From the NCBI RefSeq assembly GCF_019083965.1, contig NZ_JAHRCY010000001.1, positions 124,001 to 188,000 of the forward strand: a stretch of 64,000 nt of DNA, written 5' to 3'. Under the pieces are notes generated by a model. The model saw only the letters and a program-made list of their open reading frames with translations, searched no databases and was not told the DNA's origin. Below are positions 34,539 to 37,379 of this stretch, piece by piece (the first letter of the stretch is position 1; the number at the start of each line of letters is the position of its first letter). The stretch comes from Catellatospora tritici (GTDB taxonomy: Bacteria > Actinomycetota > Actinomycetes > Mycobacteriales > Micromonosporaceae). A program made the position numbers and the translations under genes.

Positions 34539-35453
34539 TCAGGCCGCCTCGCGGTGCAGCCAGGGCAGCAGGTCGGGTGCGCCGTACGTGGTGGCGAGCT
34601 CGGTGGCGCGGGCCTGGTAGCGGGCCAGTTCGGCGGCGTCGAGCAGGTTCCGCCCGGCGCCGGAGCCGCCCCGGCGGAAGAACGCCGCCCGGCTCTTGAG
34701 CACGCCCTGGGTGTCCGGCACGAACCGGTCGGCACCGGCCCGCATGCGTTCGAACGTGGCCGCCTCGACCAGCGTCGGCCAGACCTCCTCGGGCACCGCG
34801 ATGCCGAGCCGAGCCGCGAGCGCCCGCATCCGGCCGTCGAGGTCGGCGAGCAGGTCGTCGTAGTGCACCAACAGGATGTTGGGCTGCTCGCGGCGGCGCC
34901 AGGCGTCGGCGAGGTGCCACATCACGCCAGGCAGCGAGTCCATCTCCTCGCGCGGGTCGGCCTCGCGGGTGGTCCAGCGCAGCAGGGCCTCATGCTCGGT
35001 CCGGTGGGGCCGGGGCGGCTCGGCCGGGTCGGGTGCGGGTTGGCCGGTGAGTTCGCGCAGGCGTACCCGGTCGAGGTTGTTGCTCTGGTGGTGCAGCGAC
35101 ACCGCCATGTCCAGCGGATGCCGGGCGACCACCACGTACGTGCACTCGTCGTGCAGCGGGATGCCGTCCAGCGGGGTGTGCGTCTTGATGAAACGCCGGT
35201 GCGGCTGCGCCGCGAGCTGGGCGTACACGTCTTCGGCCGGGGTGATCAGCCAGTCCAGCCACGGGGACAGCTCGGCCAGGGGCGCGGGCAGGTCGGGGGT
35301 CCGGAAGACCAGCAGCGCGCAGATCATCTGCATCCAGGTGGTCCCGCTCTTGGAGCGGGTGCTGATCACAATGTCGCCGAGGCGGGGCGGGAAGGCGAGC
35401 CAGCGGGCACTGTCCTCGTCGGACGAGCGGTAGCGCACGGGTTGATCAGGCAT
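34539..35453 (-). CDS. PAPS-dependent sulfotransferase
   Basis: The 304-residue protein has the 5'-phosphosulfate loop TRSKSGTTW (32-40), the catalytic histidine in KTHTPLD (His92), the 3'-phosphate motif VARHPLDMAVSLHHQ (Arg111, Ser119) and a C-terminal R-G-G-x-G region. Such cytosolic enzymes transfer sulfate from PAPS to small hydroxyl acceptors. No biosynthetic cluster is visible, so the acceptor is unknown. A minus-strand TAACCT (35461-35466) lies 7 nt before the ATG, suggesting a leaderless transcript. Confidence 0.9.
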   Translation of the reverse strand: MPDQPVRYRSSDEDSARWLAFPPRLGDIVISTRSKSGTTWMQMICALLVFRTPDLPAPLAELSPWLDWLITPAEDVYAQLAAQPHRRFIKTHTPLDGIPLHDECTYVVVARHPLDMAVSLHHQSNNLDRVRLRELTGQPAPDPAEPPRPHRTEHEALLRWTTREADPREEMDSLPGVMWHLADAWRRREQPNILLVHYDDLLADLDGRMRALAARLGIAVPEEVWPTLVEAATFERMRAGADRFVPDTQGVLKSRAAFFRRGGSGAGRNLLDAAELARYQARATELATTYGAPDLLPWLHREAA

Positions 35454-35460
35454 GACGCCG

Positions 35461-35466
35461 AGGTTA
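35461..35466 (-). promoter_or_regulatory. Candidate -10 of the sulfotransferase (leaderless)
   Basis: TAACCT on the minus strand ends 7 nt before the ATG, and no Shine-Dalgarno is present. The LexA-type site lies about 45 bp upstream of this element. Confidence 0.4.
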
Positions 35467-35501
35467 GTCGATCATTCACGGTTCACTCGAACGAGTAAAG
35501 C

Positions 35502-35530
35502 TTGCCTTGTTCGAACACCTGTTCGATAAT
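35502..35530 (+). promoter_or_regulatory. Promoter overlapping a perfect LexA (SOS) box
   Basis: TCGAACACCTGTTCGA (35511-35526) matches exactly the mycobacterial/actinobacterial LexA consensus TCGAAC-N4-GTTCGA. It lies between and overlaps TTGCCT (35502-35507) and GATAAT (35525-35530), spaced by 17 bp. LexA bound here would block this plus-strand promoter until DNA damage. Expected transcription start is near 35537. Confidence 0.75.
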
Positions 35531-35536
35531 GGATCC

Positions 35537-35707
35537 ATGGCGGGGCGCCGCAGCAGCTGAGTGATGGCAGTCAGCATCTGCTCCGGCGCCCCACCGTTGG
35601 CGACGTGAGGCATCGCCGACGAACTGCATCGATCCAATGCAGACGAAGACCGCCGTCCCCCGGCGCGCCTGGCGCGCACAAGCCCTCGGGGGACGGCGGT
35701 CTTCGTC
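35537..35707 (+). ncRNA. Predicted SOS-controlled structured small RNA
   Basis: No plausible protein is encoded between the SOS-box promoter and the next terminator; frames give peptides of 7 and 15-16 residues only. The expected transcript folds into a run of stems: GGGGCGCCG (35542-35550) with CGGCGCCCC (35584-35592), continued by AGCAG/CTGCT and CTGA/TCAG; GTTGGCGA (35596-35603) with TCGCCGAC (35613-35620, one G-U); CTGCAT (35624-35629) with ATGCAG (35637-35642); then a 21-bp terminator stem. It lacks the GGAAGGAAGCAGC signature of SRP RNA. A leaderless heptapeptide MAGRRSS could alternatively be translated from the 5' end. Confidence 0.5.
35642..35707. terminator. 21-bp bidirectional terminator downstream of ffh
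   Basis: The 21 bases at 35642-35662 (starting GACGAAGACC) pair perfectly with 35687-35707; the loop has a further GCGCGCC/GGCGCGC pairing. It stands 6 nt past the ffh stop on one side and ends the SOS-box transcript on the other. Confidence 0.88.
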
Positions 35708-35712
35708 ACGTA

Positions 35713-37266
35713 CTACTTGTCGTTGTCGCCCTTCATCAGCTTGCCGAAGTCGAGCTTCGGGGCCTTGAAGGCGCCGCCACTCTGGCCGCCGAGCTGCTGC
35801 TCCAGCGCGGCCGGGTCCATGCCCGGGGGCAGCTGCGGCATGCCGGCCATGCCGCCGGGCAGGCCTGCGAAGCCGCCCCGGCCGCCACCGCCGCCACCCT
35901 TGGTGCCCTTGCGCTTGTTCTTCGGCGACTTGGTCGCCTTGCGGCGGGCACCGGGCAGGCCCATCATGCCGCCCATCTGCTTCATCATCTTCTGCGCCTG
36001 CTCGAAGCGGTTGAGCAGCTGGTTGACGTCCATCACGGTGACGCCGGAACCGCGGGCGATACGGGCCCGGCGCGAGCCGTTGATGATCTTCGGGGTGGTC
36101 CGCTCGGCCGGGGTCATCGAGCGGATGATCGCGGTGACCCGGTCGAAGTGGCTGTCGTCGAGCTCGGCGAGCTGGTCCTTCATCTGCCCCATGCCGGGCA
36201 TCATGCCGAGCAGGTTGGCGATCGGGCCCATCCGGCGCACGGCGACAAGCTGGTCGAGGAAGTCCTCCAGCGTGAACTGCTCGCCACCGAGCAGCTTCGA
36301 CGCCATCTTCTCCTTCTGATCGGCGTCGAACGCCTGCTCGGCCTGCTCGATCAGAGTGAGCACGTCGCCCATGCCGAGGATGCGGCTGGCCATCCGGTCG
36401 GGGTGGAAGACGTCGAAGTCCTCCAGCTTCTCGCCGGTGGACGCGAACAGGATCGGCTGACCGGTGACCTCACGCACCGACAGCGCCGCACCACCGCGGG
36501 CGTCGCCGTCGAGCTTCGACAGGACCACACCGGTGATGCCCACGCCGTCGCGGAACGCCTCGGCGGTGGCGACCGCGTCCTGGCCGACCATGGCATCGAT
36601 GACGAAGATGACCTCGTCGGGGTTGACCGCGTCACGGATCGCGGCGGCCTGGTTCATCATCTCGGTGTCGATACCGAGGCGACCGGCCGTGTCGACGATC
36701 ACGATGTCGCGCATGGCCCGCTTGGCGTGCTCGATCGACTCCTTGGCGACCCGTACGGGGTCGCCGACGCCGTTGCCGGGCTCCGGCGCGTACACCTCGA
36801 CGCCCGCGCGCTGGCCCAGCACCTGGAGCTGGTTGACCGCGTTCGGGCGCTGCAGGTCACACGCGACCAGCAGGGGCTGGTTGCCCTGGGCCTTCAGCCA
36901 GCGGGCCAGCTTGCCCGCGAGCGTGGTCTTACCGGAACCCTGCAGACCGGCCAGCATGATCACGGTCGGCGGCTGCTTGGCGAACTGCAGTCGGCGCGCC
37001 TGCCCGCCGAGGATCGCGATCAGTTCCTCGTGGACGATCTTGATGATCTGCTGGGCCGGGTTGAGCGCCTGCGACACCTGCGCGCCGCGCGCCCGCTCCT
37101 TGAGCTTGAAGATGAAGGCCTTGACCACCGGCAGCGCGACGTCGGCCTCCAGCAGCGCCAGTCGGATCTCGCGCGCGGTGGCGTCGATGTCGGCGTCGGT
37201 GAGCCGGCCCTTGCCCCGCAGCTTCGTGAAGATGCCGGAGAGCCGGTCGCTCAGGGTGTCAAACAC
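35713..37266 (-). CDS. ffh: Signal recognition particle protein Ffh
   Basis: Ffh binds SRP RNA and signal sequences at the ribosome. The 517-residue product has the N domain, the GTPase G domain with GLQGSGKTT (about 107-115), DTAGR and TGVVLSKLDGDARGG, and a methionine-rich M domain (about 325-430) with GSRRARIARGSG binding the RNA. The C-terminus has a Gly-rich and Lys-rich tail. The GTG at 37266 is preferred over TTG at 37281 because FDTLSDRL is the conserved start. It partners with FtsY at 42.8 kb. Confidence 0.97.
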   Translation of the reverse strand: MFDTLSDRLSGIFTKLRGKGRLTDADIDATAREIRLALLEADVALPVVKAFIFKLKERARGAQVSQALNPAQQIIKIVHEELIAILGGQARRLQFAKQPPTVIMLAGLQGSGKTTLAGKLARWLKAQGNQPLLVACDLQRPNAVNQLQVLGQRAGVEVYAPEPGNGVGDPVRVAKESIEHAKRAMRDIVIVDTAGRLGIDTEMMNQAAAIRDAVNPDEVIFVIDAMVGQDAVATAEAFRDGVGITGVVLSKLDGDARGGAALSVREVTGQPILFASTGEKLEDFDVFHPDRMASRILGMGDVLTLIEQAEQAFDADQKEKMASKLLGGEQFTLEDFLDQLVAVRRMGPIANLLGMMPGMGQMKDQLAELDDSHFDRVTAIIRSMTPAERTTPKIINGSRRARIARGSGVTVMDVNQLLNRFEQAQKMMKQMGGMMGLPGARRKATKSPKNKRKGTKGGGGGGRGGFAGLPGGMAGMPQLPPGMDPAALEQQLGGQSGGAFKAPKLDFGKLMKGDNDK

Positions 37267-37379
37267 AGCGCAACATCCCAAATCGTCGAGTTCTACTGGG
37301 TACAGGCCGAAGCAGCCTTGGTAAGGGTAGCCCGTGCCCGCCTACCCCACCGCGCCCGCGCGCCCTCACCGCCTCGGGC

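Follow-up and report, generated by a model that had tools for sequence, protein, structure and literature searches.

Small RNAs tied to LexA-controlled loci include the antisense RNAs of SOS-linked type I toxin-antitoxin systems, IstR-1/TisB and its kin, in which LexA controls the partner, a toxin mRNA on which the antisense RNA acts. The closest analogue of the locus described here is the DinR sRNA of Klebsiella pneumoniae, which, according to the available part of the report, is LexA-controlled and trans-acting, is released from the dinI mRNA 3′ end by cleavage, depends on Hfq and, upon DNA damage, blocks translation of its target ftsZ at the ribosome-binding site (PMC10907235). Actinobacterial small RNAs have likewise been examined under DNA damage, in Mycobacterium tuberculosis treated with mitomycin C, and the available portions of these reports assign no SOS box to an ncRNA (PMC5057432, PMC2764107). 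The mitomycin transcriptome of Vibrio cholerae, as excerpted, catalogues ncRNAs beside the SOS regulon, the host being a proteobacterium (PMC5963079), and the 6S-like RNAs of Actinobacteria include Ms1, a structured sRNA described in the accessible text as binding core RNA polymerase (PMC9130861). Among the literature matches listed, no title or abstract opening names an sRNA with a LexA promoter in Actinobacteria; most subscription papers lie outside this search, and the absence is not proven.

The present locus lies within a stretch of 64,000 nucleotides from Catellatospora tritici (the window) and consists of a LexA box, a predicted promoter and a predicted small RNA (35537-35707, plus strand). 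As with the type I antisense RNAs, a predicted small RNA is tied to a probable LexA-controlled locus; unlike them, it is accompanied by no conserved toxin frame on either strand, and an opposite-strand toxin frame of a type I system was rejected, since five of the 11 Catellatospora genomes lack a frame of at least 25 codons there. In contrast to DinR, the Catellatospora RNA has its own predicted LexA promoter, is intergenic and actinobacterial, and shows no ftsZ site common to the 11 genomes. By analogy with DinR, ftsZ was considered as a target and rejected: the best energies on the 11 leaders are -11.5 to -15.5, and the best loop pairing falls at different sites in different genomes. Like Ms1 the RNA is a structured actinobacterial one; the unit, however, matches no Rfam family at gathering score (Rfam 15, 0 matches; best sub-threshold match FourU, E 0.77).

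The preliminary description had claimed a perfect LexA box overlapping a -35/-10 pair with 17-bp spacing, and both elements are confirmed at exact coordinates. The box TCGAACACCTGTTCGA, a perfect palindrome (TCGAAC-ACCT-GTTCGA) located by pattern search and by comparison of 11 genomes, occupies positions 35511-35526 of the plus strand and matches TCGAAC-N4-GTTCGA of the actinobacterial LexA regulon with zero mismatches. It is situated between a predicted -35 hexamer, TTGCCT (35502-35507), and a -10 hexamer, GATAAT (35525-35530), overlapping the latter, with a spacer of 17 bp between the two hexamers, a placement that would fit repression by LexA. The promoter scan of 35400-35800 returns one promoter, compared with a mean of 0.1 in shuffled sequences. 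The box is the only zero-mismatch LexA palindrome in the window, while the 9.6-Mb genome holds eight, versus one for the reversed pattern; with one mismatch allowed the genomic counts are 68 and 16, respectively. The motif also agrees with the consensus tCGAAC-N4-GNNCGa from LexA ChIP-seq in Streptomyces venezuelae, a study whose main text, in the part available, makes no mention of small or non-coding RNA (PMC9380542).

Comparison of the 11 Catellatospora genomes reveals that both LexA half-sites, the adjacent A and T, and GATAAT are identical in every one of them, the two central bases of the box take six forms, and the flank upstream of it diverges. A TTGC-like -35 element stands at spacing 17 in seven genomes and one base further upstream (spacing 18) in the remaining four. 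The constancy of the half-sites, set against the variability of the central bases and upstream flank, indicates that the LexA box is under selection.

Further LexA-related sequences were encountered during the same searches. Upstream of lexA of the same organism lies a related box, TCGTACAGATGTTTGA, which is a weaker match than that at 35511-35526. Two lexA regions of one assembly (G000:C1:19851 and G000:C44:59373; L102 and L103) are identical across 300 compared bases, reflecting either duplication or assembly redundancy, and a third LexA-domain protein of assembly G000 is found at C12:162814 (L104). Perfect LexA palindromes occur at position 1501 of L048, some 145 bp ahead of an asparagine-synthase-like frame, and at position 1501 of L050, around the start of a prolyl-oligopeptidase-like frame, both frames being labelled by eye. 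A one-mismatch box, TCGAACATATGTTTGA, at position 1501 of L054 marks the start of a radical-SAM-like frame with an intein-like insertion, which we take to resemble Rv2578c.

The predicted RNA would begin about 7 nt after the -10 hexamer and end at the last stem. Folding of 35537-35715 (-116.2 kcal/mol, z -8.96) yields three stems followed by one of 21 bp; none of 200 shuffled sequences reaches this energy, and two relatives (L009 and L004) fold with z values of -6.70 and -5.83. Stem-loop I (35539-35595), supported by folding and by covariation in the alignment, carries a 10-nt apical loop, GTGATGGCAG (35561-35570), closed by GCTGA/TCAGC (GCTGG in one genome); the loop is identical in ten of the 11 genomes, and the other, G003, has an extra T. 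An additional hairpin (35596-35620) is confined to the clade of the window (3 of 11 genomes). Stem-loop II (35625-35641), recovered by folding and alignment, displays in its loop region the self-complementary ATCGAT (35628-35633), which could let two RNA copies pair. The final 21-bp stem is formed by 35642-35662 with 35687-35707 and is a putative terminator shared with the convergent ffh transcript. Folding thus reproduces the three stems and the 21-bp stem of the preliminary description; the terminator label given there stays putative, since the stem has no U-run, and the classical terminator scan found none. Stems without a U-run can end transcription in actinobacteria.

The fold was evaluated for compensatory changes on an alignment of 11 rows, with 43 base pairs and 470 cells, and it passes this test. 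Overall, 98.1% of the cells pair, while slid versions of the structure reach at most 53.3%. Seven base pairs change on both sides, of which stem I holds three and the final stem four; the number of double-change cells is 20 versus 6.7 in shuffles, and the covariation score is 0.156 versus 0.094, a value that none of 500 shuffles attains. Two of the five measures are weak: the number of pairs with double changes is less striking (7 vs 4.5, with 25 of 500 shuffles reaching 7), and there is no increase in further pair types (14 vs 15.2). The stem I tip ranks with the most conserved parts, and clades differ in the inner part of the stem nearest ffh.

The unit is present in all 11 Catellatospora genomes searched, in each case at the 3′ end of ffh (SRP54; 35713-37281, minus strand, in the window) and convergent with it. 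The covariance search over the family, proposed in the preliminary description, was run on 354 genomes and returned the same 11; no unit above chance was detected in the other 343, for which the strict filters may lose weak matches. The further covariance matches are an opposite-strand self-match of the unit in G002 (E 0.03) and one in G263 (E 0.078), which is taken as chance. By blastn, 42 of 300 family genomes give hits, of which only 11, all of the genus, fall below E 1e-4; the remaining hits, outside the genus, are short pieces (E 1.1e-4 to 0.01). The pattern formed by the LexA box plus TGATGGCAG occurs in 31 records of genome_contigs, seven of them Catellatospora; none of the 11 read among the 24 other records has the stem I tip, and these partly resemble LexA-driven protein genes (Glycomyces, Mycobacterium). 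A mobile origin was rejected, given that no similar DNA is found at E 1e-5 in phages or plasmids. The 20-mer of the stem I tip has no exact copy in viral contigs.

Taking into account its presence in all 11 genomes, the invariant half-sites, the double changes, and a MAGRRSS-type peptide start in only three genomes, the unit is most likely a LexA-repressed non-coding RNA. Together with the invariant -10 hexamer, this evidence supports the regulatory-RNA reading of the preliminary description as far as the predicted RNA is concerned. LexA control of a non-coding RNA, comprising repression, release by damage and the RNA itself, is accordingly regarded as highly probable. The unit shows features expected of a trans-acting sRNA, being most likely non-coding and combining its own predicted promoter with a conserved, covarying fold. 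A further feature of base-pairing sRNAs is the complementarity of its conserved loop to the translation start region of whiB1, which makes this gene a candidate target; the preliminary description had named none.

The complement of the loop, CTGCCATCAC, was searched in all 11 genomes, perfect complements only, and occurs at 148 places, of which 10 are the RNA's own gene; the other 138 were all processed. Among them, a single set recurs in every one of the 11 genomes, namely the sense-strand leader of whiB1 (wblE), whose product falls in Pfam Whib and is closer to WhiB1 than to any other PDB protein (134 bits; 58 for the next-best, non-WhiB1 entry). Fourteen of the 138 places lie just upstream of a start preceded by a Shine-Dalgarno sequence, and 11 of these 14 are whiB1. 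The match extends one base beyond the 10-nt complement: the 11-nt site ACTGCCATCAC is present in every whiB1 leader of the genus, spans -27 to -17 in eight genomes and about -30 to -20 in three, and adjoins AAGGAG at -16. A 3-4-nt indel beside the site leaves it intact. In predicted folds the site is mostly unpaired (means 0.53-0.71, with the leader start assumed).

Outside the genus, 58 whiB1 orthologues, one per genome, were compared. The longest match to the site is 9 nt in one (L316) and 7 nt in eleven, the others having less, and none of the 58 exceeds 9 nt. The pairing energies, all computed with the standard loop sequence, are -6.5 to -17.7 in these orthologues versus -20.2 to -20.5 in Catellatospora. 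Since some starts were placed at an upstream GTG, the tabulated offsets can be off by some 9 nt, and the 60-nt windows still hold the region. Part of the whiB1 site may be ancestral, because L316 and the eleven orthologues with 7 nt match it without the RNA.

Loop and site are both almost invariant and consequently show no sRNA-target covariation; the adjoining ribosome-binding region of whiB1 varies just as little. In the three standard-loop RNAs checked, folding places four of the ten loop bases in two weak inner pairs. In the G003 RNA much of the loop is predicted paired, and owing to the extra U it pairs contiguously with the site over 10 nt only. Of the 305 ORF starts in the window, one pairs slightly better than whiB1 does (-20.8 vs -20.2 to -20.5). 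The chance of coincidence for the whiB1 hit is estimated at about 5%, from two clusters of at least eight genomes and a 2.4% background (3 of 127 non-whiB1 places). A control 10-mer, the complement written backwards, occurs at 60 places, of which 30 were read; the largest cluster among these comprises five genomes, and no cluster can extend to 11 genomes, since neither of the two G008 places, both read, matches a G010 place. The chances that whiB1 is a real target appear evenly balanced.

The reading that best survives beside it also accepts the LexA-controlled non-coding RNA and gives it a main target other than whiB1, reached through imperfect pairing to other mRNAs or through protein binding. 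The RNA itself is well supported, whereas whiB1 rests on one match of 10-11 nt with a chance level of about 5%, and the target search covered perfect loop complements only. Against this, the apical loop matches, over its full 10 nt, the ribosome-binding region of a single gene, whiB1, throughout the genus, and none of the three remaining places just ahead of a Shine-Dalgarno-preceded start recurs across genomes. A different main target is a serious possibility, judged the less probable outcome.

Several other occurrences of the loop complement deserve mention. It also appears, again in sense, some 75 nt into a membrane-protein-like frame in four of the 11 genomes (L226, L235, L254 and L265), which may represent a possible second target, and in one genome a sense match lies near the start of an aminopeptidase-like frame. 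The other recurrent perfect complements, in 3 to 8 contexts each, are repeats, antisense to open frames or inside them, as far as read; for example, the complement at a junction presumably corresponding to rplP/rpmC is antisense to the frame in eight genomes. The loop letters GTGATGGCAG themselves occur in the sense strand of the apparent rpmC start in eight genomes (e.g., L173 and L175), probably by coincidence.

Action of the transcript in cis on the convergent ffh is improbable. With a 3′ part that would be antisense to the 3′ untranslated region of ffh, the transcript could disturb ffh transcription or stability once DNA is damaged, and it is in favor of such a role that synteny with ffh is kept in all 11 genomes while the upstream neighbourhood changes, and that the final stem has no U-run, so that read-through into ffh is possible. 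On the other hand, the linkage may be plain vertical inheritance, and the best-conserved parts include the stem I tip, the inner part of the ffh-proximal stem being clade-dependent. Furthermore, ffh was found in 61 searched genomes and its 3′ side read in 30, three of Catellatospora and 27 outside the genus: a perfect box is present in all three of the former, while the 27 keep ffh with no box of at most one mismatch on its 3′ side (a two-mismatch hit occurs in four).

A short SOS peptide as the product is very unlikely, whether the leaderless MAGRRSS or an internal ATG frame beginning MAVS. The former, offered as an alternative in the preliminary description, fails because its start occurs in only three of the 11 genomes. 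In favor of the latter, each of the 11 genomes keeps the internal frame open over 14 codons or more; yet a stop follows after 14 codons in three and the ends differ in others, silent changes are no commoner than expected (25 of 151; expected share 0.24), and the frame begins inside the stem I loop. No frame in the RNA is conserved among the 11 genomes, in line with the initial view that no credible protein is encoded.

That the box serves the divergent upstream gene, the hairpins being only the terminator region of ffh, is hardly tenable: although the divergent gene of the window, a sulfotransferase gene (34539-35453, minus strand), begins 57 bp from the box, it occupies this place only in the three genomes of the window's clade and the other eight have an amidohydrolase-like frame at varying distances upstream, while the box, the -10 hexamer and stem I persist and the -10 hexamer faces the RNA.

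The preferred explanation, a LexA-repressed trans-acting sRNA that is made after damage and likely blocks whiB1 translation via its apical loop, is given even odds as a whole. LexA on the box would block RNA polymerase until RecA-triggered cleavage of the repressor frees the promoter, from which an RNA of about 160-170 nt, running from approximately 35537 to the 21-bp stem, would be made. Its predicted loop GUGAUGGCAG, complementary to CUGCCAUCAC at 17-30 nt before the whiB1 start and adjacent to the Shine-Dalgarno sequence, would pair there and hinder ribosome loading on whiB1, thereby lowering a likely partner of the primary sigma factor during damage. WhiB1 of M. tuberculosis is an essential protein that binds region 4 of SigA, and for wblE of Streptomyces two studies disagree on essentiality, according to the part of the source available (PMC6282962). 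Lowered WhiB1 would be expected to shift SigA-dependent transcription during repair.

The stronger proposal, that the Catellatospora SOS response is wired directly to a WhiB-class iron-sulfur regulator, with LexA cleavage releasing a dedicated sRNA whose whole loop would engage the whiB1 leader and shut off this regulator, is advanced tentatively and with somewhat less than even confidence. If true, it would represent the first trans-acting sRNA with a LexA promoter in Actinobacteria, with the RNA and the full target site both in one genus, and DNA damage would be linked to WhiB1/WblE, a partner of SigA that is essential in M. tuberculosis. SOS regulons have been described mostly as protein genes, and a stand-alone RNA with a LexA promoter would show that actinobacteria also use RNA in their damage response.
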